A stretch of DNA of 64,000 bases from Morinoia aosen. Its lineage: Eukaryota > Arthropoda > Malacostraca > Amphipoda > Talitridae. Every line of letters starts with the position of its first letter. Positions within the stretch are counted from its first letter, which is position 1. The stretch is taken from NCBI GenBank assembly GCA_030386875.1, contig CM059575.1, positions 45,414,859 to 45,478,858 on the forward strand, read 5' to 3'. The translations under genes were made by a program, and so were the position numbers. This document shows, in pieces, positions 16,278 to 64,000 of the stretch. The notes beneath the pieces are model-generated. The model saw nothing but the letters and a program-made list of their open reading frames with translations, was not told the origin of the DNA and made no database searches.

Positions 16278-16520
16278 TTTATAAAGTCAGAGAAGTTGCT
16301 TTTCTTCAGGCGAATGATCATTAGGAATTTAAAAACGAAGAATGCACTACATATTGAAATCATATTTATATTTAATTAAGATGCTACACTAACTATATAT
16401 TCGAAACCAAGTCAATTCTATAAAACGTTTCGGAGACCAGCTCCATCTTCAGTTAACCGTCTGCAAGTAAAAAGTAAAGAAAATCAGTCTTCTATACAAA
16501 ACACAAGGGTACAATAAAAT
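16278..16520 (-). repeat. Penelope pseudo-LTR, outer left
   Basis: Minus-oriented. Contains the ORF-downstream block, then the start of another unit truncated within codons for KKSNFSDFIK. Same sequence as 19038-19253, inverted relative to 22220-22417. Confidence 0.8.
16426..16452 (-). ncRNA. Hammerhead-like ribozyme motif (candidate)
   Basis: On the minus strand the block has CTGAAGA, a GGAG/CTCC hairpin and then GAAAC, the order of the hammerhead catalytic core. Hammerhead motifs are known in Penelope-like pseudo-LTRs. An extra U sits between the core and stem II, and the cleavage-site strand was not pinned down. Confidence 0.35.
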
Positions 16521-19037
16521 TTACAAGTGAATTTGTAATGGGTATGAACTATTGGCGCTATTAAGATCTGGTTTTTCTTTTGAAATAAAAAGAGATTCTA
16601 AATTACGTAGATCTAAGTCATTGGATGCTGTGCGCAAGATTGAAAAATTTTCCTCTGCTATTCGGTCACAACACTGCTCGCTGTGAAGGCGGATAGATGA
16701 ATGAGGCGGTTGGGTCAAAGGTCTTCCGCTACGGTAGCTGACTCCACGGTGTTGGGCAATCCTAATATAGAATGGCAAAGTCGTCATGCCGACATAGCCA
16801 GATGTACACTGTACACAACTAAACTTATACACAATGGATGCCCGCATCCGTTTAGGAATCACGTCCTTGTAGCGAAAGAACGACCCAACTTTAAGTGAAT
16901 TAACCGACACAATACACAGTTTTACAGCAGGAAAATGACGTTTAAAAAGAATTTCCAAATCTCGCGACATTTTATCAGTATAGTCTCCAAAATACGGGAA
17001 AACGCAATAAAGACGTTGCAATGGTTCTATCACGACATTTGTGACGGAGTATTTTTTAGCCAAAAATTTTTTAATATGAACATTGACAATAGACGTAGGG
17101 TACCCATTTTTTTGTAAAAAATTTTGTAAAAAAGAAAACTCCATATGAAGATCAACGTAATTAGAACAAATATTGAAGGCACGATTTAACAAGGTTTTTA
17201 TAGTATTGATTTTAAATCTATAGTTACAGAAGCTAAAAAAGCTTAAGCCCAAACCCGTGAATGTAGGTTTGCGATAGACAGATGAACTGAACGTATGGCC
17301 GCTTCTAGTAATTTTAGAATCCAAAAAAGATAAACAATTATTTGACTCCATTTCAATTGTGAATTTTATTGACGGGTGTTTAGAGTTTAAGTATTCTCTG
17401 AACAAAGGTGCATGACTAGGATCTCTAAACAGTAAAAACGTATCGTCAATATATCTGCGGTAGAATTCAGGCTTAAACTCTGTGGGACAATCAGCCAACC
17501 ATTTTTCTTCCCAATGGCACATGAAAATATTGGCAAACATAGGCCCCAGGGGTAGACCCATACCGAGACCCTCAACTTGCTTATACATCTTTCCTGCAAA
17601 AATAAACACAGAATTCAACACGGAAAGTTCAAGGAGGGTTTTAAAATGAGTTTTTCCTAGACCTAAAATCGTGTTTGTTGATGTAACAAAAAGGGTATTT
17701 ATAATTATATTTATAGTTTCCGCTAATGGAATATTGGTGAACAAATTTTCCACATCAAATGAAGCCATTGTCATTACATTTGGATTCTGAAAAGAAGTAA
17801 TCTCCCTAACGAACTGAGAAGAATTTTCCAACGTGTAAACATTCCTGGTTAAAGGACTTAATAAGGGTACCAAGAATCGAGCTAAATTGAAACTAGGCGT
17901 GTTACAAGCAGCAAAAATAGGCCGGAACTGAAACTTAGATGGAAAGTCTGGCTTGTGCACTTTCGGTAAACCGTACAATACTCCTGGACATGAACCAGAC
18001 ACGTACAACTTGGAATATATTTCAGATGACAAAACCTTCAAATTTTTTAGCTTCCGCAAAAAGTTATAAATTTTATCTTCAATTTGGAGAATAGTTTTTT
18101 CCCATGACTCAGTAATCAATTTAAATTTAGATGCATCAGATATTAAAGCTTCCATTTCAGTATTGTATACGGACTTATCAAGAATTACAATGCCTCTGCC
18201 TTTATCAGGTTTACATACTATAATTTTGTCATTGCGGCCCAATTCTTTCAGCGCAGATACATCGTTCTTCTTAAACACGGTTGAGAAAATTTTCTGCGGT
18301 TTAAAACTATAGAAGTAACGATGGGCTAAAGAACGTAAAACTTGCAAGAATCTCGTACGATCAGCACACTGTAAAGATTTACTCGAATATGCAAGTTTTT
18401 CGTAAGATAAGAAGTATTTGTAAAAGTCCAATTTAAAAATGGGTAAGCAGAAGTCGAGGCCAAAAGCTAAGAGTAATTTTGTACGTTCCGGTAACAACAT
18501 TGCACTGTAGTTGAATATCACTTGGTTAGGATCACATGGGTTAATATCGTATTGCACACCAAGGTTTTCAAGTTTCCTATTATGCACCCTGAGAGTAGCT
18601 ACTTTGAACTTAGCATCTTCCGACTGCCGAAAACCACGAACGCACAACGCGTCCAAGCGGGAGAAGAAAGCGCTAGCTTCAGCTTCAGCGGTTGCCACTT
18701 TTCCTGTCAAGTTACGCACAGCATCTCTTTTCTGTTGTAACTCCTGCATTAACAACTTATTCTGCCAGGACTTGTAGAAATGAGAGGTGTGGAGAGATCT
18801 TCTGTGGAGTTTAAACCGTAGAAACTTGGGCACCACACCAAATATTTTGCAACGTGTTAAAAATTCGACGTCTAAAGATGCCTTCATCAGTTTGCGAGAT
18901 AAATCACAGTATTTCCGTAGTATCTTAAAACCATCTTCGCCGTATTTGTTTTTTATAAAGTCAGAGAAGTTGCTTTTCTTCATGCGAATGATCATTAGGA
19001 ATTTAAAAACGAAGAATGCACTACATATTAAAATCAT
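16521..19037 (-). CDS. Penelope-like element polymerase (RT + GIY-YIG endonuclease)
   Basis: An 838-residue protein that cleaves target DNA and primes reverse transcription of its own RNA. Visible motifs: KPDKGRG (276-282), LPKVHK (357-362), FDVENLF (427-433), GLGMGLPLGP (490-499), catalytic YIDD (529-532) and FLDSKI (571-576). The C-terminal GIY-YIG nuclease spans about 735-830: VYKFSC with a CxxC pair (741, 744), YVG (748-750), an Arg near 759-769, Glu 814 and Asn 826. The length fits complete EN+ Penelope proteins. The frame is open throughout, with about 11 residue differences from the plus-strand copy. The chosen start is the first ATG; it lies in sequence also present in the pseudo-LTR, so a later ATG (residue 15 or 19) is possible. 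Confidence 0.93.
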   Translation of the reverse strand: MILICSAFFVFKFLMIIRMKKSNFSDFIKNKYGEDGFKILRKYCDLSRKLMKASLDVEFLTRCKIFGVVPKFLRFKLHRRSLHTSHFYKSWQNKLLMQELQQKRDAVRNLTGKVATAEAEASAFFSRLDALCVRGFRQSEDAKFKVATLRVHNRKLENLGVQYDINPCDPNQVIFNYSAMLLPERTKLLLAFGLDFCLPIFKLDFYKYFLSYEKLAYSSKSLQCADRTRFLQVLRSLAHRYFYSFKPQKIFSTVFKKNDVSALKELGRNDKIIVCKPDKGRGIVILDKSVYNTEMEALISDASKFKLITESWEKTILQIEDKIYNFLRKLKNLKVLSSEIYSKLYVSGSCPGVLYGLPKVHKPDFPSKFQFRPIFAACNTPSFNLARFLVPLLSPLTRNVYTLENSSQFVREITSFQNPNVMTMASFDVENLFTNIPLAETINIIINTLFVTSTNTILGLGKTHFKTLLELSVLNSVFIFAGKMYKQVEGLGMGLPLGPMFANIFMCHWEEKWLADCPTEFKPEFYRRYIDDTFLLFRDPSHAPLFREYLNSKHPSIKFTIEMESNNCLSFLDSKITRSGHTFSSSVYRKPTFTGLGLSFFSFCNYRFKINTIKTLLNRAFNICSNYVDLHMEFSFLQNFLQKNGYPTSIVNVHIKKFLAKKYSVTNVVIEPLQRLYCVFPYFGDYTDKMSRDLEILFKRHFPAVKLCIVSVNSLKVGSFFRYKDVIPKRMRASIVYKFSCVQCTSGYVGMTTLPFYIRIAQHRGVSYRSGRPLTQPPHSSIRLHSEQCCDRIAEENFSILRTASNDLDLRNLESLFISKEKPDLNSANSSYPLQIHL

Positions 19038-19253
19038 ATTTATATTTAATTAAGATGCTACACTAACTATATATTCGAAACCAAGTCAATTCTATAAAAC
19101 GTTTCGGAGACCAGCTCCATCTTCAGTTAACCGTCTGCAAGTAAAAAGTAAAGAAAATCAGTCTTCTATACAAAACACAAGGGTACAATAAAATTTACAA
19201 GTGAATTTGTAATGGGTATGAACTATTGGCGCTATTAAGATCTGGTAAGATTG
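19038..19253 (-). repeat. Penelope pseudo-LTR, inner left
   Basis: Upstream block of the minus-strand element, including the last few codons of a preceding truncated ORF copy. Near-identical to 16386-16573. Confidence 0.8.
19100..19126 (-). ncRNA. Hammerhead-like ribozyme motif (candidate)
   Basis: Identical core to 16426-16452, minus strand, upstream of the ORF. Confidence 0.35.
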
Positions 19254-19545
19254 AAAAATTTTCCTCTGCTATGTCGGCATGACGACTTTGCCATTCTATA
19301 TTAGGATTGCCCAACACCGTGGAGTCAGCTACCGTAGCGGAAGACCTTTGACCCAACCGCCTCATTCATCTATCCGCCTTCACAGCGAGCAGTGTTGTGA
19401 CCGAATAGCAGAGGAAAATTTTTCAATCTTACGCACAGCATCCAATGACTTAGATCTACGTATTTTAGAATCTCTTTTTATTTCAAAAGAAAAACCAGAT
19501 CTTAATAGCGCCAATAGTTCATACCCATTACAAATTCACTTGTAA
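19254..19545 (+). pseudogene. Truncated C-terminus of a Penelope ORF at the inversion junction
   Basis: Encodes the last 88 residues (GIY-YIG half) of the Penelope protein from 19279, identical to the plus-strand copy. About 25 bp at 19247-19271 come from the minus-strand element, so the head-to-head joint lies at roughly 19270, with a small internal deletion on the left side. This is a 5'-truncated upstream tandem unit of the plus element. Confidence 0.85.
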
Positions 19546-19702
19546 ATTTTATTGTACCCTTGTGTTTTGTATAGAAGACTGATTTTCTTTACTTTTTACA
19601 TGCAGACGGTTAACTGAAGATGGAGCTGGTCTCCGAAACGTTTTATAGAATTGAATTGGTTTCGAATATATAGTTAGTGTAGCATCTTAATTAAATATAA
19701 AT
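19546..19702 (+). repeat. Penelope pseudo-LTR, inner right
   Basis: Non-coding block between the truncated ORF and the full ORF. Same as 22220-22376 apart from a few substitutions (for example ACATGCAG in place of ACTTGCAG). Confidence 0.8.
19614..19640 (+). ncRNA. Hammerhead-like ribozyme motif (candidate)
   Basis: Plus-strand copy of the CTGAAGA - stem - GAAAC core. Confidence 0.35.
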
Positions 19703-22219
19703 ATGATTTCAATATGTAGTGCATTCTTCGTTTTTAAATTCCTAATGATCATTCGCCTGAAGAAAAGCAACTTCTCTGACTTTATAAAAAACAAATACGG
19801 CGAAGATGGTTTTAAGATACTACGGAAATACTGTGATTTATCTCGCAAACTGATGAAGGCATCTTTAGACGTCGAATTTTTAACACGTTGCAAAATATTT
19901 GGTGTGGTGCCCAAGTTTCTACGGTTTAAACTCCACAGAAGATCTCTCCACACCTCTCATTTCTACAAGTCCTGGCAGAATAAGTTGTTAATGCAGGAGT
20001 TACAACAGAAAAGAGATGCTGTGCGTAACTTGACAGGAAAAGTGGCAACCGCTGAAGCTGAAGCTAGCGCTTTCTTCTCCCGCTTGGACGCGTTGTGCGT
20101 TCGTGGTTTTCGGCAGTCGGAAGATGCTAAGTTCAAAGTAGCTACTCTCAGGGTGCATAATAGGAAACTTGAAAACCTTGGTGTGCAATACGATATTAAC
20201 CCATGTGATCCTAACCAAGTGATATTCAACTACAGTGCAATATTGTTACCGGAACGTACAAAATTACTCTTAGCTTTTGGCCTCGACTTCTGCTTACCCA
20301 TTTTTAAATTGGACTTTTACAAATACTTCTTATCTTACGAAAAACTTGCATATTCGAGTAAATCTTTACAGTGTGCTGATCGTACGAGATTCTTGCAAGA
20401 TTTACGTTCTTTAGCCCATCGTTACTTCTATAGTTTTAAACCGCAGAAAATTTTCTCAACCGTGTTTAAGAAGAACGATGTATCTGCGCTGAAAGAATTG
20501 GGCCGCAATGACAAAATTATAGTATGTAAACCTGATAAAGGCAGAGGCATTGTAATTCTTGATAAGTCCGTATACAATACTGAAACGGAAGCTTTAATAT
20601 CTGATGCATCTAAATTTAAATTGATTACTGAGTCATGGGAAAAAACTATTCTCCAAATTGAAGATAAAATTAATAACTTTTTGCGGAAGCTAAAAAATTT
20701 GAAGGTTTTGTCATCTGAAATATATTCCAAGTTGTACGTGTCTGGTTCATGTCCAGGAGTATTGTACGGTTTACCGAAAGTGCACAAGCCAGACTTTTCA
20801 TCTAAGTTTCAGTTCCGGCCTATTTTTGCTGCTTGTAACACGCCTAGTTTCAATTTAGCTCGATTCTTGGTACCCTTATTAAGTCCTTTAACCAGGAATG
20901 TTTACACGTTGGAAAATTCTTCTCAGTTCGTTAGGGAGATTACTTCTTTTCAGAATCCAAATGTAATGACAATGGCTTCATTTGATGTGGAAAATTTGTT
21001 CACCAATATTCCATTAGCGGAAACTATAAATATAATTATAAATACCCTTTTTGTTACATCAACAAACACGATTTTAGGTCTAGGAAAAACTCATTTTAAA
21101 ACCCTCCTTGAACTTTCCGTGTTGAATTCTGTGTTTATTTTTGCAGGAAAGATGTATAAGCAAGTTGAGGGTCTCGGTATGGGTCTACCCCTGGGGCCTA
21201 CGTTTGCCAATATTTTCATGTGCCATTGGGAAGAAAAATGGTTGGCTGATTGTCCCACAGAGTTTAAGCCTGAATTCTACCGCAGATATATTGACGATAC
21301 GTTTTTACTGTTTAGAGATCCTAGTCATGCACCTTTGTTCAGAGAATACTTAAACTCTAAACACCCGTCAATAAAATTCACAATTGAAATGGAGTCAAAT
21401 AATTGTTTATCTTTTTTGGATTCTAAAATTACTAGAAGCGGCCATACGTTCAGTTCATCTGTCTATCGCAAACCTACATTCACGGGTTTGGGCTTAAGCT
21501 TTTTTAGCTTCTGTAACTATAGATTTAAAATCAATACTATAAAAACCTTGTTAAATCGTGCCTTCAATATTTGTTCTAATTACGTTGATCTTCATATGGA
21601 GTTTTCTTTTTTACAAAATTTTTTACAAAAAAATGGGTACCCTACGTCTATTGGCAATGTTCATATTAAAAAATTTTTGGCTAAAAAATACTCCGTCACA
21701 AATGTCGTGATAGAATCATTGCAACGTCTTTATTGCGTTTTCCCGTATTTTGGAGACTATACTGATAAAATGTCGCGAGATTTGGAAATTCTTTTTAAAC
21801 GTCATTTTCCTGCTGTAAAACTGTGTATTGTGTCGGTTAATTCACTTAAAGTTGGGTCGTTCTTTCGCTACAAGGACGTGATTCCTAAACGGATGCGGGC
21901 ATCCATTGTGTATAAGTTTAGTTGTGTACAGTGTACATCTGGCTATGTCGGCATGACGACTTTGCCATTCTATATTAGGATTGCCCAACACCGTGGAGTC
22001 AGCTACCGTAGCGGAAGACCTTTGACCCAACCGCCTCATTCATCTATCCGCCTTCACAGCGAGCAGTGTTGTGACCGAATAGCAGAGGAAAATTTTTCAA
22101 TCTTACGCACAGCATCCAATGACTTAGATCTACGTATTTTAGAATCTCTTTTTATTTCAAAAGAAAAACCAGATCTTAATAGCGCCAATAGTTCATACCC
22201 ATTACAAATTCACTTGTAA
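19703..22219 (+). CDS. Penelope-like element polymerase, second copy
   Basis: Same 838-residue protein as the minus-strand copy, with all RT and GIY-YIG catalytic residues retained (YIDD at residues 529-532). Differences from the sister copy are single substitutions, for example residues 3, 19, 180, 233, 295, 324, 366, 500, 651, 672 and 812. Neither ORF has a stop or frameshift, which is unusual in this otherwise decayed region and suggests both are recent. No intron is seen. Downstream non-coding sequence carries the same hammerhead-like motif as the other three flanks. Confidence 0.93.
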   Translation: MISICSAFFVFKFLMIIRLKKSNFSDFIKNKYGEDGFKILRKYCDLSRKLMKASLDVEFLTRCKIFGVVPKFLRFKLHRRSLHTSHFYKSWQNKLLMQELQQKRDAVRNLTGKVATAEAEASAFFSRLDALCVRGFRQSEDAKFKVATLRVHNRKLENLGVQYDINPCDPNQVIFNYSAILLPERTKLLLAFGLDFCLPIFKLDFYKYFLSYEKLAYSSKSLQCADRTRFLQDLRSLAHRYFYSFKPQKIFSTVFKKNDVSALKELGRNDKIIVCKPDKGRGIVILDKSVYNTETEALISDASKFKLITESWEKTILQIEDKINNFLRKLKNLKVLSSEIYSKLYVSGSCPGVLYGLPKVHKPDFSSKFQFRPIFAACNTPSFNLARFLVPLLSPLTRNVYTLENSSQFVREITSFQNPNVMTMASFDVENLFTNIPLAETINIIINTLFVTSTNTILGLGKTHFKTLLELSVLNSVFIFAGKMYKQVEGLGMGLPLGPTFANIFMCHWEEKWLADCPTEFKPEFYRRYIDDTFLLFRDPSHAPLFREYLNSKHPSIKFTIEMESNNCLSFLDSKITRSGHTFSSSVYRKPTFTGLGLSFFSFCNYRFKINTIKTLLNRAFNICSNYVDLHMEFSFLQNFLQKNGYPTSIGNVHIKKFLAKKYSVTNVVIESLQRLYCVFPYFGDYTDKMSRDLEILFKRHFPAVKLCIVSVNSLKVGSFFRYKDVIPKRMRASIVYKFSCVQCTSGYVGMTTLPFYIRIAQHRGVSYRSGRPLTQPPHSSIRLHSEQCCDRIAEENFSILRTASNDLDLRILESLFISKEKPDLNSANSSYPLQIHL

Positions 22220-22417
22220 ATTTTATTGTACCCTTGTGTTTTGTATAGAAGACTGATTTTCTTTACTTTTTACTTGCAGACGGTTAACTGAAGATGGAGC
22301 TGGTCTCCGAAACGTTTTATAGAATTGACTTGGTTTCGAATATATAGTTAGTGTAGCATCTTAATTAAATATAAATATGATTTCAATATGTAGTGCATTC
22401 TTCGTTTTTAAATTCCT
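22220..22417 (+). repeat. Penelope pseudo-LTR, outer right
   Basis: Follows the plus ORF and ends in a truncated next-unit ORF start (AFFVFKF codons) directly against the right target duplication at 22418. Confidence 0.8.
22288..22314 (+). ncRNA. Hammerhead-like ribozyme motif (candidate)
   Basis: Fourth copy of the same core, downstream of the plus ORF. Confidence 0.35.
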
Positions 22418-22432
22418 AATAAGGATCTGTTT

Positions 22433-49190: not shown

Positions 49191-49437
49191 TGAATTAGTT
49201 CAACTGCCAGTAAAATGTTCGAATAAGTTCAAATTTGAGCTACATGTTACGCGGAGAATAATTTGCTTACGTTAGGATTGAGACCATTTACGCATATTAA
49301 TATATATGGTTAGCAGCAAGTGTATAAGTGCTACGCTACCACGCTGGTTCTGTAACTGGCATTCCGAGGACACAAATGTCCTATATTATAAAATATATAC
49401 TGGATTGAATTTAACAATAATTTGTTATTTCTTTGAT

Positions 49438-49783
49438 CCCCTCAGGGGGATACAACTATTGTATCTATGGGAATTAGCGCTCCCAGGGGGACTATGTAAG
49501 GGCCTGAGCCAAAGGTTAGGTAGGCTTTCTTTTTTGTTGAAATAGAATAGGTTTTGTTATGGACCATCTTTTTTCGGTTCACTGCTGTCCTGTTTTTCAG
49601 CACCTACTACTTTCTTCAACTTTTTCTCGTTTCATGAACTTCTTCTTAGCTTTCTGTTTCTGTGCCCTTTCTGCATAGATTCCACGTTTCTCTAACTCCA
49701 TACTAAATGGTGCCTTCTTCCTTCCCCTCTTTGGATAGCCTTTGTTGCGGATAGGGAAGCTTAAACTAACTGAAAATCTGATC
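49438..49783 (-). mobile_element. 330-bp SINE-like retroposon, minus copy
   Basis: Full-length copy of the family found seven more times at 54.7-61.5 kb. Flanked by a 15-bp duplication TGTTRTTTCTTTGAT (49423-49437 and 49784-49798, one mismatch). Confidence 0.85.
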
Positions 49784-49838
49784 TGTTGTTTCTTTGATAT
49801 TGTTCTACCGCAAACTTTTACTTACAAACGGACTCCTC

Positions 49839-54116: not shown

Positions 54117-54170
54117 TAACGCCTCCCACTACTACCACATGCGTGTCGACGCTGCTGCCCCACATCACGG

Positions 54171-54684
54171 TATACTAAAGGAGGTAAAGTCACTTCTACG
54201 GGTACAGCCGCGCACATTCGCTAATTCGACTGGCCAATAGAAAGCTTCGTATCAAACAAGCCGGATGACATCACTCGCACGCAGCATGACGTCAGCGGCG
54301 GCAGCGTGCGTACTACCACGCAGCGTACTCTGCCTTTCAGACGTACGATCAACAACAGGACCGACTGCCGGTATGCCTGCACGTATCCGGATTTGGATTT
54401 TTGGAAAATTTAATTCCGTCCGGCTACGTGCAAATTTACAAGAACTAAAAGGTCGTCCATCTTCAATTTAATTATAACAGTAGCTTCGTAAATTGAAAGC
54501 CCTTTCCGAAAAAATAGAAAATTTACTTTAATCAATCATGGAAGACGTTTTATTATCTTTTCATGCGGATGAGGCTGACGATTGCGCACCGGATCGTAAG
54601 GATAATATAAACTTCTGTACTTATATGTTTATTTGAAATAAAACATGCTATATATTTCGCTTCACTAGAAACGATTATACGCAA
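54171..54684. other. Non-coding, moderately GC-rich
   Basis: The frame at 54265-54471 has no recognised domain. Confidence 0.3.
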
Positions 54685-55025
54685 TTTTAAGCCTCCGTGA
54701 CCGCTACATGAAAAGGCGTATCGAAGAAAGGAAGGAGGAAGGCACCATTTGGTATGGATTTGAGAAAATGCGGAATCTATGCACGAGATGCATAGAAATA
54801 GTAAGCTATGCAAGAAGTTCATGAAACAAGACGAAGTTGAAGAAGAAAGTCGTAGGCGGTGAAAAATAGGACACCAGTGAACTGAAAAAGATGGTCCATA
54901 ACAAACCCAAAATCTTTTCTATTTCAACAAAAAGAAAGCCTACACAACCTTCAGCTCGGACCCTCACATAATCCCCCTGGGAGCACTCATTCCCATAGAT
55001 ACAATAGTTGCATCCCCCTGAAGGG
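54685..55025 (+). mobile_element. 330-bp SINE-like retroposon, copy 1
   Basis: Starts at the AAGCCTCC head and ends in the 3' double-hairpin block. The extreme 5' end is trimmed and no clear duplication is seen. Confidence 0.8.
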
Positions 55026-56291
55026 AAAATACCCTGTACACAAAAATATTAAATTGAGGAGCAAGATGACAAAATTAACGCTGAAGAAGAAAATCATAGG
55101 TGATGAGAAACGGAACAGCAGTGAATAAAAAGAAAAGAGTTTTTGAGAAAAGAAAACAAAGCTTTTAAATTGTAATAAAAAGAAGCCCTACGAAACTCAA
55201 ACCTTGGGACGTAACATAACTCGTTCTTCAAGAATGGGGAGCAAAAACAAAGAGACAGTAGTTATTAGTCCCTGGAAAAATATTCTCCACACTTAAAAAT
55301 ACACTAAATTTGTATCACGTACATTTTTGGCGATAATGAATGAAATAAACTATTTTCCTCTCAAAACATTTGGTAGACCTCTCTATGCGCGTTTCGACAT
55401 TTTCCAGTTATAAATTCCAAAATCCACACAAAAGAAACAACATAAAACTAATTGCTTGAATCTAGGAAAGGACTTGAGTAATCACATACGACGAGTGACT
55501 AATTAATAATAAGCTGCAGCACTCCCAATGCATTAGCGCTATATTCAAACATCAGGACACTCTCCGTGCCAGTAAGTAAAGAACTATAAAATAAAAATAA
55601 CCTGAACACTTACAATTCACAAATGAATAAATTTAGTTTAATGGATTATAAAAATAAAGTTTAGAATGACCAGTTAGTCAAAATCACAATTTGAGTACCA
55701 ATTCTTTTAACTCTGCAATACTGCATGAAACAATATATATCATAGTTTTGCAGAGGTTTCCATAAGTTAGTTATAAACAACCTTTCCAAAAAAGTTGCAG
55801 TGTAGAGGGAGAATGAATAGAATAACAAATACATATAGCTCATACATAGTAATTCTTTTTGATGAAATTTTCACTTAACTGTGCACTGTAGTAGTAGTAG
55901 TAGTAGTACCATGAATTTGCTAGCGCTTCAGTAGGTCCTACTATATCGCGCCGAAGGTCTCGCGTCACAATTATCGGCCTATCGGTCACATCACCGGCCT
56001 ATCGGTCACATACATGTATAATTTAAGGAATTAATTGCAACTTAAAATAAGGTTCAAATAATGATCACCTTACTCTTTAAGGTAATATTACCGGTGCTGA
56101 AACCGCTTGGGCCATGGGCCCCTCGGCATTTACCTACTTATACTAATTTAGCTTCTGCCCTCAGATAATTTTCTCAAGAGAGCCCACAAACCCTTTCACT
56201 TGAAATTCCTTTTTTTTTGTATATTTAAGTAAGTAACTTTAGATCAAATCAATCATAAACTGCTGAAAGTACTTGAAAGATTATTATTATA
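55026..56291. other. Non-coding; diverged retroposon piece at 55055-55260
   Basis: A weak copy of the family (GAAGAAGAAA...GCAGTGAA) is present at 55055-55260. Confidence 0.4.
55888..55908. repeat. (GTA)7 microsatellite
   Basis: Seven perfect trinucleotide units. Confidence 0.95.
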
Positions 56292-56497
56292 TAAGGAAGT
56301 TTTAGCCTCCCTTAATTGCACGACAAAGATGTTCTAAGAGAGGAAGGAGGAAAACACCATTTAGTATGGAGTTGAGGGAACGCGGAATCTATGCACAAGG
56401 TGCACATAAACAGAAATCTAAGAAAGAAGTTCATGAAACAATAAAAAGTTGAAGAAGAAGGGTAGTAGGTGCTAAAAAACAGGGCAGCAGTGAACAT
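56292..56497 (+). repeat. 5' half of the retroposon, directly upstream of LINE ORF1
   Basis: Matches the family from AGCCTCCC to CAGCAGTGAAC, then diverges 24 bp before the ORF1 ATG at 56521. It may be the true 5' UTR of the LINE rather than a separate insertion. Confidence 0.65.
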
Positions 56498-56850
56498 TAC
56501 TTGAAAGATTGACCTACCCAATGGCCAATAAAGAAAAATCCCTGGAGGCCCTGGGTCTAGCAACACCAAGGGAAAAAAAAAGGAATGCATCATTATTCGC
56601 AACCCATTCTAAGAGAAAATGGAAAGATAAAATCTTCCAAAAAAGGTTATCCAAAAGTCAGGAGTTCAAAAGGTAATCCAAAAGTACTACCCTAACTCAA
56701 CCATCTCTATCAGAAATGCAAATGCACGAAAGTCTTGACAACAATGCAATATTAGCAGTTACAAATGAAACTGAAAAGCCCACTAATCCACAAAAACAAA
56801 CTTTGGATGAAAGCCTTGAACCTGCAGAAAAAGAAGCTCATGGGAAAAAG

Positions 56851-57226
56851 ATTAGATTATAAATTAGATTATAAGTTAGTTTAAGCCTCCCTAACCGCTT
56901 CAAAAATAGAGCGTATCGAAGAGAGGAAGGAGGAAGGCACCATTTAGTATGGAGATAAGAAAATGAGGAATCTATGCTGAAGGGGCATAGAAACAGTAAG
57001 ATGAGAAATAAGTTCATGAAATAAGATAAAAGTTGAAGAACAAGTGAGAGGTGATGAAAAGCAGGACAGTAGTGAACCGAAAAAAGGTGGTCCTTAAAAA
57101 AACAAAAAAAAAAAAACTTTCATTTCAACAAAAAGAAGGCCTACCTAACTCTCAGCTCGGGCCCTCACATTTTTCCCCTGTGAGCGCTAATTCCCATAGA
57201 GACAATAGTTGTATCCCCCTGAGGGG
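56851..57226 (+). mobile_element. 330-bp SINE-like retroposon, copy 2
   Basis: Flanked by TCATGGGAAAAAG (56838-56850) and TCATGGGAATAAG (57227-57239), 13 bp with one mismatch. The head motif ATTAGATTATAA is repeated. It interrupts LINE ORF1. Confidence 0.9.
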
Positions 57227-57719
57227 TCATGGGAATAAGAAAAGGAACTTAAGCAACAACTTGAAGTTTGGTACAACTGACTTATCCTTTGAGAGCAATC
57301 CATCTGCAGTGATACCTAGGGGTAGGTCTCTAAATACAACTATAGATACCATTACTAACAACCAAGAGCAATATACAAACAATCAAGCAACTTTCTCACA
57401 ACCAAGATCTGCTAAAATTGATATGAACCTGCCAGAAAACATAGATAAAATACCTGATTCTTCCAGTCATGTCATAATCTCTGCAACAGATGAACAGATC
57501 AAACTCACAAAACTGAGTCCATTCAGAGTGCAGAGCCTAATCAATCAAATTTGTGGCCCAGTGGAACAAGTGGAATACAAAAAAAAAAACAGGAAGCTTA
57601 ATAATAAAAGTAAAAACCTTTGAACAAACAAAAACATTACTTGAAGCCAAATCCTAGGATTAAATTTCTATTAATACTCAAATAGCCTGAGGAGCTCCTA
57701 CTAAATGTGACAAGATTTA

Positions 57720-58049
57720 GATTAGATTATTAGTTAGTTTAGGCCTCCCTATCCGCAACAAAGGCGATCCAAAGAGAGGAAAGAAGAAGGCACCATTTAG
57801 CATGGAGTTAAGGGACCGTGGAATCTATGCAGAAAGGGCACAGAAACAGTAAGATGAGAAAGAAGTTCATGAAACAAGATCAAAGTTGAAGAAGAAAGTA
57901 GGAGGTGCTGAAAAACAGGACAGCAGTGAACCGAAAAAAGATGGTCCGTAACCAAATAAAAACCAATTTCAACAAAAATAAAGCCCTTTACATAGTCCCC
58001 CTGGGAGCACTAATTTCCATAGATACAATAGTTGTATCCCCCTGAGGGG
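57720..58049 (+). mobile_element. 330-bp SINE-like retroposon, copy 3
   Basis: Exact 14-bp duplication TGTGACAAGATTTA at 57706-57719 and 58050-58063. This defines the element as 330 bp from GATTAGATTATTAG to CCCCTGAGGGG, with no A-tail. Confidence 0.95.
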
Positions 58050-58675
58050 TGTGACAAGATTTATGCACCTGAATTTCCTGGCGAGTCTCTGGATGAACAG
58101 CTGCTGCATCTTGCCCCTACAGGAATAGTAGGTATCAGGAAAATGTAAATGGACCCAAAGCGAGCTGACTCTCTTATGTTCGTTTTGACTTTCTAGGAAC
58201 ATAATGCCCTAAGGAGATTAAGGCAGGATATTTCAATTACAAAGTCCATCCTTTCTATCCAAACCCAATCCATTGCACAAAATGTTCGAAATGGGGCATA
58301 CCGTTTCCATCTGCCGAAGCAAAAAAATTTGCAGAAACTGTTCATTAGCAGAACATGATGAAGCAAGCTGAAAATCAGACAAATACCATTGCCCTAACTG
58401 CAAAGGGAATCATTCTGCTAACTCCAAAAACTGTCCAACACATGTCCAAGAACACAAAAATTGCAAAATCAAGGCCAGCAAAAATATTTCTTTTGATGAA
58501 TCACGTGCCATCTACTCTCAACAACAAAAAACCAACTATAGATGAACACGGAACAATATATTGCCCTCGCATCACAGCACATATTCCCGGCTCTGACTCA
58601 GCCACAAGAGCAAAATTTCTCTCGGAATACATATGCAGCTGCAACCCGATCTTATAGTACACACCCCCTTGACAA

Positions 58676-58705
58676 CAGAACCACCTCTCAGAAGAGGTGG
58701 TTCTG
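58676..58705. other. Perfect 13-bp stem-loop followed by T run
   Basis: 58676-58688 pairs perfectly with 58693-58705 around CAGA; six T follow shortly after. It resembles a bacterial terminator but lies in a eukaryotic LINE relic, so that function is unlikely. Confidence 0.9.
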
Positions 58706-59129
58706 CTTTTTTGCTAACAAAAAACATAAGCAGATGATAACCAGCCAAAGCTGCAGGAATCAATTTAGAAGAAGAATCAAACTAGAAGAAGCCAACACGC
58801 TTCCCTGGGCTCAAATACATTGCCTGAGACTGATGTAGCCTCTGGTTATCCTCCAGATCACAGGAACATGCTAGAAAGACAATCTCAATTAAGAGATGCA
58901 AACAACTCAAATGCAACACCACATCTGCCGAAAATCTCCCAGGAGAAACAAATGGTGGGCTGCTTTAAAAATCTAACCATCCAACTTCTCCCTGCTATTA
59001 TCAAAATCTTACTAGCAAACACTATAACTGAAAAATAGACAGCCTAAAAGAAATAGAAAATATATTAGAAGCTGGTGAACTAATTTCCGAGTTACTCACA
59101 AAATTAAATGTTACCTCTCTCATCATTCA

Positions 59130-59512
59130 AGCATGAACTTACAATCCTACAATGGAATCTAAAAAGATACTTTGCAAAACTACCTTACCTTCACTTGCTT
59201 ATTGATCAACATCAGCCAGGAATTATATGTATTCAAGAATCATTGTTACAACAGCACCATAACATATAATTGAAGAATAACTTCAGCCCTTTCCGATATG
59301 AAAGAAGGGAAGGTAGAGGAGGTGGGGGTGATCACTTTCATTCACGCCAGCATGCTAAACATAACAACACAATTGACTACTCCATTAGAACTTGTGCTCT
59401 GCAAAATATTTATCAACAAAAAGCCTATCAATAAAATAAATATGTATTTGCCACCCCATTTGGATAGTAATGGTTTAATGCAGAAGTTGCAGGACATCAG
59501 TTATCAGATTAC
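59130..59512 (+). pseudogene. LINE endonuclease (APE-type) fragment
   Basis: The translation has TILQWNLKRYF with the catalytic Asn and, after a gap, GIICIQES with the catalytic Glu (about 59218-59240). A shift then gives FRYERREGRGGGGVITFIHAS and KINMYLPP. This matches the N-terminal APE endonuclease of Jockey/I-group LINEs. Coding similarity stops near 59512 and no RT follows, so the element is truncated or disrupted. Confidence 0.7.
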
Positions 59513-59600
59513 AGGATAACTGATTACTGCAGCACTTTGCATGCTGCAGAATGCCTCAGATGCAATTCTTGTTTGGCCCTTCAAATCTTGGTTGGGGGCT

Positions 59601-59732
59601 TCAAATCTCTTCCACTTCCAAAAAAGGAAAACTTCCTCCGATCTCGGTGGCTCCGTTGAACACCACTGCAGCCTTTTGTTCCTCTTCAGACACCTCAATG
59701 ATAAGTGGAATTACTTCACTTTCTTCCGGCAC
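59601..59732 (-). CDS. Candidate 3'-terminal exon of a host gene
   Basis: On the minus strand, a strong splice acceptor (CTTGTCTTTCAG, ending at 59733) precedes 43 sense codons and a TGA at 59601-59603. The product begins VPEESEVIPLIIEVSEEEQK and ends FPFLEVEEI. It is acidic and protein-like, with no transposon motif. It starts in phase 0, which fits the phase-0 donor of the exon at 60861-61006. The acceptor, open frame and phase match are seen in sequence; membership in one gene is inferred. I do not recognise the protein. Confidence 0.5.
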   Translation of the reverse strand: MPEESEVIPLIIEVSEEEQKAAVVFNGATEIGGSFPFLEVEEI

Positions 59733-59969
59733 CTGAAAGACAAGATCAAATGTGAACTCAAGTTGACAATTTTTTTAATGAAGTCTTTTGCTTCATAAGC
59801 AAGCATTTCAGTTGCAGTTAAGAGTACAGATTTAAATCTGTTAGAGAAAATGGAGCTAATATGATAAATTGAGACGCAGGTGAGAGCAATTAGAAAAAGG
59901 GGTCAGTTGTGAAGAACTACGCTGAACAGGAAGTACCTTTGAAAAGTATACGAAGAAATGGAGATGATA

Positions 59970-60310
59970 TTCTTAGTTAATTTGAGCCTCCCTATCCATA
60001 AAAAAGGCGACCCAAAGAGAGGAAGGAGGAAGGCACCATTTAGTATGGAGTCAAGGGAACGCAAAATTTTTGCAGAAAAGGCATTAAAACAGTAACATAA
60101 GAAATAAGTTCATAAAACAAGATCAAAGTTGAAGGAAGTAGTAGTTGCTGAAAAACAGGACAGCAGTTAACCGAAAAAAGATGGCTCGTAACACCATAAA
60201 AGCTTTTTATTTCAACAAAAAAGGCCTACCTAACTCTCAGTTTGTGCCCTCACATTGCCCCCTGGGAGCGCTAATTTGCATAGATACAATAGTTGTCTCC
60301 CTCTGATGGG
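59970..60310 (+). mobile_element. 330-bp SINE-like retroposon, copy 4
   Basis: Exact 14-bp duplication AAATGGAGATGATA at 59956-59969 and 60311-60324. Lies in the putative intron of the minus-strand gene. Confidence 0.9.
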
Positions 60311-60400
60311 AAATGGAGATGATAAACTGTAGCATAATATTAAATTTAAAACTATAAGGGTCTCAATTGAGAAAGAGAAGAAAAGAGACAAAAAGCTAGG

Positions 60401-60500
60401 ATTAGATTATATGTTAGTTCAAGCCTCCTTAACCGCTAAAAAAAGCAAGTTTAGAGGAGAGGCAGGAGAAAGGCACCATTTAGTGAGTAAATAAAAGAAC
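60401..60500 (+). mobile_element. 330-bp SINE-like retroposon, 5' fragment (copy 5)
   Basis: Head from GATTAGATTATATGTTAG to CACCATTTAGTGAG; the rest is missing. Confidence 0.75.
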
Positions 60501-60860
60501 GCAATGTGGGATATCATGGAGGAAATAAGATTTAAGGGGGAAAAAAAAACTATTGATAGTAATAGGCAAAGAAGTGTGAAATACATGGCTTAAAACAAAA
60601 TCTAAGTTTATGCACTCTATTTCCCACAATTCCTCTCTAACATTGAATGTTGTCTAATATATTTAGATTTTTGAGAGACATTAAATAATAATCCTAGCCC
60701 ACATTTTTGAAAACTTTCAAAGAATAAGTATAAAAAATGAAAAAATCTATTTAATAAGACTCCTAATAATTGAGTCGAGAAAATCTGTCTATAATCTGGA
60801 CATCATAAATTTTATTCTGACATGCATGTATTCCTTAGCGGGTTACCAGACTCATCTCAC

Positions 60861-61006
60861 CTCTGCTAAACAGCCCAAGGTCTCTCTTAATTGCTCGTCA
60901 GGAGCTGTCTCGCAATTGGAAGCAGGAGGAGCTCGAATGAGAGAAGAGCCAGAGAAGAGCAGTGAGTGATCAGCAGCTTGATTGGATGGCATGTCAATCC
61001 CATGTC
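60861..61006 (-). CDS. Candidate internal exon of a host gene
   Basis: Minus-strand 146-bp open segment bounded by an acceptor (TTTTTTATTTTTCAG, ending at 61007) and a donor (GAG then GTGAGA, 60860-60855). It contributes 2 nt of a split codon plus 48 codons (HGIDMPSNQAADHSLLFSGS onward, ending ETLGCLAE) and ends in phase 0. This is compatible with splicing to 59732. The intron between (about 1.13 kb) contains two retroposon copies in opposite orientation. No upstream exon could be assigned with confidence. The protein family is not recognised; this is the best cellular coding candidate in the window. Confidence 0.5.
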
Positions 61007-61172
61007 CTGAAAAATAAAAAAATTCATATGAAAGAAACAGTATGTAGCAACACTTTATGTAAAAATTAAGTCTCTCTCTGTAATGAAATCTTGAATGAAC
61101 ATATAAAAACAAAAATATTGACCCTAAATGATAACATTTAATTTTAACGAGTTTTTAAATATACTAAAAAGA

Positions 61173-61510
61173 TGAGATTAGATTATTAGTTAGTTTAAGC
61201 CTCCCTATCCTCAACAAATGAGATCCAAAGAGAGGAAGGAAGAAGGCACCATTTAGTATGGAGTTAAGGTTACGTGGAATCTATGCAGAAAGGGCACAGA
61301 AACAGTAAGATGAGAAAGAAGTTCATGAAACAAGATCAAAGTTGAAGAAGAAAGTAGTAGGTGCTGAAAAAAAACAGGACAGCAGTGAACAAAAAAAAGT
61401 GTTATTTTAACAAAAAGAAAGCCTACATAACCTTTAGCTCGGGCCCTCACATTGTTTCCCTGGGAGCGCTAATTCCCACAGATACAATAGTTGTATCCCC
61501 ATGAGGGAAA
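61173..61510 (+). mobile_element. 330-bp SINE-like retroposon, copy 6
   Basis: Flanked by ATACTAAAAAGA at 61161-61172 and 61511-61522. Confidence 0.9.
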
Positions 61511-62799
61511 ATACTAAAAAGAACTCAATACAATCTAACAAAGCTAATGAAGAATTTAAATTCAAATTTTGAAAAATAATTACCTTGGAAGAGAAAAACT
61601 AGACCAATAAGAACTTAGAAGAATTTTTAAATACTCTTGATAACAAAAGTTCAATGGATTTAATCTTTAGCTTATGAACATAACATACCTTGTAATGGAT
61701 TAATGTATTAGATATTTTTATACAACACTTAGAGATGTTGCAATTCTCTATGAAGAAAAAGTTCATCAGAATCAATTAGATAACTAAACACTTAAAACAC
61801 TTACAGTAAAAATGGGCTCTTAAAATGAAGGCCCAGTAAGTCACTGACAGATTGAAATTTAATAAAGGAATTTTGTTGTCAACTCTTTGTACTGAATTTA
61901 TTATGAAGATCAACTAGCTTTTATGAAGAACCAACTTGCAAAAATAAATGTTTCATTATGTTTATATCCACTAATATGGATGAGTCAAATTTGAATTATG
62001 AAAATATAGATACCAAGAATATGTATGGATGAATCTTGAACAATGGCTGCAGCTGCACCATTTGCAGTGAAAACACAGCTTAATGGAGTACTCTATAAAG
62101 TCATTAAGTGTGCAGAACTCATATTTGGCATGAAATTAAAAGGTGCTACCTGTGGATAATAACTGGATATGTATGCACAATATTGCCTTAATTCTAATAT
62201 CATAACTAACAAGAGTCACCCATGATGAGCTATCATTATGGGGGTACTTATGGATATAGATTCTCAAAAACAATACTACCCAATACATGAAAAGAAAAAT
62301 ATGTATAACAGGATGTCTACTGATATATTTCATTTCCAAATTTCAATAGTTTTCTACTATTTTTTTCAACATCCAAGAATTATTACCTATTTTATACATA
62401 ATGAATGTCGTTAACATGTAAGCAATTGGCTTATAAAGAGCAGTTTCAGTCATTAATACACTCAATAACACAGGTTCAAAAAAAGGTTGAAGTTTGTTAA
62501 TACTTAATACTAAAAGCAGCAACCAATGCATTATTGCCAAAAAGTTACCTAAATTCCTAACATAACCAGTCCAAAATGTACTCTTAACAAATGTTCAGCA
62601 AAGACCTTGTCTTAACATCTTCCAACTATAAGAGCAACAGTTCATCACATGAACAAATCAACAGACTAGAAACTAGTAGACACCGGTGGATTGTCAGATC
62701 CACTGACAGACATATTTCCAATAAACTGCAACAAATTCCTGATTATTTGAGAAAGAAATGGGTAAAAGTTAATAAACACTTTAAACATAGGTACATAAC
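61511..62799. other. AT-rich, no gene recognised
   Basis: A minus-strand donor-like GTAATTAT near 61583 lies upstream of the internal exon, but no convincing exon is attached to it. Confidence 0.35.
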
Positions 62800-63640: not shown

Positions 63641-64000
63641 TGGTCAATATGTATTTTAGGTGCCTCACGGAAATTAATAATTCCGTTCCAAGCAATCACT
63701 AAAGAAACACATTTATAAACATTTTTAATATAACCTTTCTTTTGTTTTCAACTAAAACATCCTAGAAGTGGGCTCAGGTCCGGGGGGTTAGCGAATAATA
63801 AATTACGCAATATATTGCAGAAACAACTTTTCTCCTGCCTGCCGCGCTCGTTGCGTTGTTGGAACGCACGCTCCTTTGGCACAACAAAGACAGTTCATGA
63901 GCGACACTCCTATAACTTCAAAGTCGAATAACTCTTAAAAAACGCATCAGCAAGCAGAATGACATTCATGTAAAACGTTTTTAAATGTGTTCCTTTAGTG
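63641..64000. other. Non-coding to window end
   Basis: Nothing recognised. Confidence 0.35.

Follow-up and report, generated by a model that had tools for sequence, protein, structure and literature searches.

The subject of this report is a family of short interspersed repeats in the talitrid amphipod Morinoia aosen, found in a stretch of 64,000 nucleotides of contig CM059575.1 (GenBank assembly GCA_030386875.1, positions 45,414,859 to 45,478,858 of the forward strand), the whole of which is referred to here as the window. The family is very probably a non-autonomous retroposon of about 360 nt, with an RNA that runs from an end bearing two adjacent hairpins to a (TAATC)n or (TAA)n end, and which is mobilised by a long interspersed nuclear element (LINE), whilst the crowding of its copies within the window has come about through an 11.7-kb DNA transposon. 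Fundamental to this reading is the direction of the element. The original prediction had placed the double hairpin at the 3' end; both hairpins exist as sequence, but the end that they mark is the 5' end of the retroposon, the reverse of the earlier orientation.

Copy number and mobility

A genome-wide search, which had been proposed as a check on the family, finds the exact 28-nt hairpin end (the head) 9,711 times in the 1.99-Gb genome and the exact 25-nt opposite end (the tail) 5,627 times, with no occurrence of the reversed control for the former or of the control for the latter. Contig C1 was followed up over its first 28 places with the exact tail: 8 carry the exact head, and 12 of the other 20, which were fetched, are full-length copies with an altered head. 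The share of full-length exact-tail copies with an exact head is thus 8 of 20, or 0.4, which gives a rough estimate of about 24,000 full-length copies (9,711/0.4), a figure that rests on the start of this one contig and assumes that the share holds elsewhere. The family is therefore short, interspersed and high in copy number, as are the short interspersed nuclear elements (SINEs). The shared repeat unit, earlier defined as 330 bp, is real, but full-length units across the genome are longer, at about 350-375 bp, with a simple-repeat tail and several subfamilies.

The mobility of the family was followed through its target duplications. A head-anchored sample was made up of 40 loci (L047-L086) fetched out of 100 places listed, and 26 of the 40 pass the duplication threshold; a genome-wide lack of duplications, which had been named as the result that would count against retroposition, is not what is seen. 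From these 26 copies, 24 were pooled with 9 of 20 tail-anchored copies to give 33 sites, after dropping L065, which is a second copy of one insertion, and L082, which is ambiguous. The nine tail-anchored sites were chosen for an exact duplication adjoining the element, and the other 11 were left out owing to a mismatch, an unclear duplication, nesting or a position within a microsatellite. Duplications at the pooled sites measure 14 bp (16 sites), 13 bp (11), 12 bp (3), 15 bp (2) and 11 bp (1), such that retroposition with duplications of 12-15 bp, as first proposed, is supported in genome-wide samples.

Filled and empty versions of the same target site are also observed. The sequence GAAAGTCTTGACA is single, and hence empty, at 56728-56740 of the window, whilst 9 of the 38 loci L001-L038 have it doubled; these 9 represent 7 distinct places, as some loci overlap, and here the insertion is found in other copies of the carrier transposon described below. 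Similarly, GGAACATGCTAGAA is single at 58863-58876 and doubled, with the site filled, in locus L022. These sites were counted by exact match, so altered copies escape the count. Within subfamilies the divergence from the consensus ranges from 0.6-0.8% up to 13.5% (26 aligned copies, one duplicate omitted), so that the activity of the family is recent but has also extended over some time. Some copies are nested in, or adjoin, other copies (L052, L068 and L070).

The element is most likely a short non-autonomous retroposon, copied via target-primed reverse transcription. A miniature inverted-repeat transposable element (MITE), or another short DNA transposon with duplications, would also be short, high in copy number, devoid of coding capacity and furnished with a precise hairpin end. 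Such elements are recognised by inverted repeats and a duplication of fixed length, and it is on this point that the comparison breaks down: the duplications range in length between 11 and 15 bp, the two ends are by sight not mutual inverted repeats, one of them is a variable microsatellite, and truncation from one side leaves the duplications in place. The MITE was rejected on these grounds and is extremely improbable.

Direction of the element

Which of the two ends is the start of the RNA? On the sense strand the element reads 5'-CCCCTCAGGGGGATACAACTATTGTATC, containing the hairpins, through to GGGAGGCTTAAACTAACTTATAATCTAATC-3', after which the target duplication follows. The assignment of the hairpin end as the 5' end depends on (i) the microsatellite tail at the opposite end, (ii) truncations that remove the hairpin end yet keep the duplications, and (iii) a target bias found on the tail side only. 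With regard to the first, the far end of the head-anchored copies, where intact, is a simple repeat that varies in length and in unit, which may be (TAATC)n, (TAATCT) or (TAA)n; L085 has a long run of TAA, and variable simple-repeat 3' ends are typical of many LINEs and SINEs. With regard to the second, duplications flank one-ended copies that lack the hairpins, namely copy C of the window, L102, L090 (with one mismatch) and L095 (where the duplication is weaker), whereas the four head-anchored copies that have lost the far end (L049, L050, L051 and L054) have no duplication in any case. Finally, the target boundary on the tail side, at which the first nick is expected in this direction, reads T^T: of the 33 pooled sites, 24 have T at -1 and 25 have it at +1, and no comparable T bias is present at the hairpin-side boundary of these sites.

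The same three features contradict the earlier proposal that the RNA ends at the two hairpins, without any tail, and that this hairpin-only 3' terminus is the structure recognised by the partner LINE. Were that so, a long and variable microsatellite would sit at the 5' end, the truncated copies that bear duplications would be truncated at the 3' end, and the target bias would lie on the wrong side. The proposal does draw on a precise hairpin end, on hairpins that fold on either strand (as examined in copy E) and on a strand with one T-run of four or more as against seven on the other. It also gains from a LINE 3' region, L107, which at about positions 116-137 matches TGGG.GCGCTAATTCCCATAGA over 21 of 22 nt in that strand, antisense to the head as oriented here. 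Only 1 of 300 shuffles gave as good a match, in one of ten comparisons, but the match stops short of the 3' terminus in both sequences. It is a lead that may reflect chance, shared ancestry or exchange. An RNA that ends at the hairpins is, on balance, very improbable.

Probable mobilisation by a helper LINE

With the RNA running from the hairpins to the tail, the course of an insertion can be sketched. The transcript would start at CCCCTCAGGGG and would read 5'-CCCCTCAGGGGGATACAAC onwards to the (TAATC)n or (TAA)n end. A LINE-encoded endonuclease would nick the top strand of the target between two T residues (T^T), and the freed target end would prime reverse transcription on the UAAUC or UAA tail, where slippage could vary the tail length. 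Copying would then either reach the exact 5' end of the RNA or halt early, to give a 5'-truncated copy, and cleavage of the second strand would generate the 12-15 bp duplications. In this scheme the RNA intermediate, the LINE helper and the priming on the tail are what we infer from the structure of the copies.

The genome holds 52,382 first-look candidates for the reverse transcriptase domain RVT_1, of which 150 were scored. Six LINE 3' regions were defined by the tandem tails that lie downstream of reverse transcriptases, the terminal repeats being AACAAGT-like in five of them and GTTCAA in the other. The LINE families concerned (L107-L112) indicate that simple-repeat 3' tails are common in this genome. 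A LINE that ended in GGGAGGCT(T/A)AAACT...TAATC outside the context of the SINE-like element would be the partner.

A number of observations weigh against a LINE-mobilised element that runs from hairpins to tail. The tail is shared by none of the six LINE 3' regions examined, and the match of L107 to the opposite strand of the head has already been described. Target duplications are not visible around copies B and G of the window, and 14 of the 40 head-anchored copies fall below the duplication threshold, some of them being degraded, nested or broken. The contrast in truncation amounts to four copies each way. The significance of the T^T bias is p ~1e-6 (-1) and ~2e-7 (+1) when set against a T content of 0.31; however, as duplications were extended maximally the last base of the tail is excluded at -1, and with a corrected null of 0.45 the values weaken to ~0.001 (24/33) and ~0.0003 (25/33). 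Lastly, the stems of the head in 12 copies have 6 changes in 22 positions, of which 4 break a pair, 2 are one-sided and keep the pair, and none is compensated. Covariation between copies, which had been suggested as a test of the hairpins, thus lends them no support in these 12 copies. The hairpin loops of the same copies have 11 changes in 6 positions, and the low rate of change in the stems hints at constraint on the hairpins, in a sample that is small and selected, having been fetched as full-length copies with heads unlike the exact 28-mer. As a whole, the element (copy E) folds no better than shuffled sequence (z scores of 0.01 and -0.66).

The head and the promoter

One of the main questions concerning the family relates to the origin of its transcript. 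Neither the window nor the family consensus contains a tRNA according to ARAGORN, and none of the Rfam families reaches its gathering score within the window. Relaxed Rfam searches give only weak matches to unrelated families in 54600-61600 (E up to 5) and three weak matches, again all to unrelated families, in six copies (E up to 10). In 38 of 200 shuffles the joint score for the A and B boxes of RNA polymerase III (Pol III) is as good as, or better than, the best in the consensus. The claim that the family has no A-tail and no recognisable tRNA, 5S or 7SL head is borne out. Among the seven sense-strand T-runs of four or more, five are of five or six. Given the box score, the T-runs and the lack of a tRNA or Rfam match, a full-length Pol III transcript fits poorly, and transcription by RNA polymerase II (Pol II) or by read-through seems more likely.

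Classical SINEs have a head derived from a Pol III RNA with an internal promoter. No such head is found here, and classical SINE membership is not claimed, though the family is SINE-like in its working. It is somewhat unlikely that it represents a classical Pol III SINE in which the small-RNA head has decayed beyond recognition: the size, the tail and the duplications would agree with this, and GTTCACTGC at position 145 of the consensus is one mismatch off the short B-box pattern, but the shuffled box scores, the seven T-runs, and the ARAGORN and six-copy Rfam results all stand opposed. A similarly doubtful origin is that of an internally deleted LINE derivative, which would keep the 5' and 3' ends of its parent together with a Pol II promoter. 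The missing Pol III signal and the exact 5' end are consistent with such a derivative; however, no LINE with the head or tail of the family was seen, and head-anchored copies (n=40) that diverge after the head run into differing sequences. A bolder reading, less probable than not, is a very abundant and recently active non-Pol III retroposon, where a Pol II or read-through RNA would start from the fixed double-hairpin 5' end and LINE priming would take place on UAAUC or UAA. Precedents exist in SVA and RIME, which are Pol II or LINE-derived non-autonomous retroposons that are mobilised by LINEs without a Pol III promoter of their own, although for the present family a LINE origin is shown for neither end.

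Copies in the window and their carrier

The seven or more copies within 7 kb, plus one at 49438, that first drew attention to the family are all found. Between 54.6 and 61.6 kb, the five copies B, D, E, F and H are long and copy C is truncated; an 85-bp end fragment, G, and weak family fragments near 55.07-55.22 kb are present as well. Copies B-H lie on the reverse strand, and copy A, which is full length at 49438-49784, lies on the opposite, forward strand, where it reads from head to tail. Copy A is flanked by duplications at 49424-49437 (GTTATTTCTTTGAT) and 49785-49798 (GTTGTTTCTTTGAT) with one mismatch. The long but diverged copy B occupies 54673-55028. Copy C (56283-56497), which is 5'-truncated such that the hairpin end is absent, has duplications at 56270-56282 and 56498-56510 (TACTTGAAAGATT), whilst the full-length copy D (56851-57226) has them at 56839-56850 (CATGGGAAAAAG) and 57228-57239 (CATGGGAATAAG) with one mismatch. 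For copy E (57720-58049) the duplications are at 57706-57719 and 58050-58063 (TGTGACAAGATTTA), for copy F (59970-60309) at 59955-59969 and 60310-60324 (GAAATGGAGATGATA), and for copy H (61173-61510) at 61161-61172 and 61511-61522 (ATACTAAAAAGA). The tail-end fragment G is found at 60400-60484.

The high density that had been attributed to the family is real as a crowd of copies but is accounted for by a carrier. Copies B-H are the cargo of a multi-copy DNA transposon of 11,743 bp, and their crowding is no independent property of the family: the copies are crowded because they inserted into the carrier and were then multiplied with it. In the window the carrier extends from 54166 to the end at 64000, and beyond it to 65908 in window numbering, with its left end CACGGTATACTAAAGGAGG at 54166 and a left 8-bp duplication at 54158-54165 (CCCCACAT). 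Three other places match it over about 11.75 kb with an identity of 99.58-99.68%. At all four places the ends are the same (CACGGTATACTAAAGGAGG on the left, CTTTCGTCTACCATG on the right) and the flanks differ, with 8-bp duplications of gccgaggt, gccaggat and ccaaggag at the other places and of ccccacat for the window copy, where 6 additional bases are found on the right. The termini, CA...TG, form a short imperfect inverted repeat. From the length of the duplication one may guess that the carrier is P-element or hAT-like, although it is assigned to no superfamily; it resembles such transposons in its 8-bp duplications, CA...TG ends and short imperfect terminal inverted repeats, but differs in that no transposase was identified in it. 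Fragments of at least two LINEs also reside in the carrier alongside the copies.

An insertion hotspot was considered as the cause of the density and rejected, as copies B-H lie inside one mobile carrier. Six identical or nearly identical copies of the element suggested by the first genome search were likewise rejected, as their flanks are shared. That search gave 30 loci, of which 25 match copy E in both flanks and one, L030, marks a different site of insertion within the carrier. The remaining loci, L019, L020, L023 and L024, combine at about positions 1500-1860 the left flank of one insertion site with the right flank of the second, a pattern that would result if two copies had recombined and the stretch between them had been lost. 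None of these 30 loci entered the duplication statistics.

Elsewhere in the window, 16320-19246 and 19494-22420 hold two 842-codon putative Penelope-like frames, so named by their look, which are inverted with respect to each other and share 99.5% identity over 2,927 bp.

Relation to known elements and significance

The family is alike to the LINE-dependent SINEs with a simple-repeat tail, as presented in the available part of one account (PMC8010984), in being short, noncoding and high in copy number with 12-15 bp duplications, and also in its variable tail, 5' truncations and exact 5' end. It differs from them in that it has no recognisable small-RNA head, no Pol III boxes above chance, and T-runs within its body. 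In the portions available of two descriptions of insect SINEs, all nine described for the German cockroach have tRNA promoters (PMC9191728) and those of Helicoverpa have tRNA or 5S heads (PMC3272025); the present family is again alike to these as a short retroposon with duplications, but without the small-RNA head. A literal search of papers for five end sequences of the family gave no match, and the family may have a catalogue entry.

In kind the repeat is unremarkable: the suspicion of a retroposon was right, and it was the orientation that had to be reversed. Putting the strand right removes what would have suggested a novel type of terminus recognised by a LINE. The family itself is high in copy number, and both filled and empty sites are to be seen in a carrier that likewise has several copies. 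SINE-like families in which no Pol III head can be recognised are less usual, and for this one the question of its promoter is one that can be tested.

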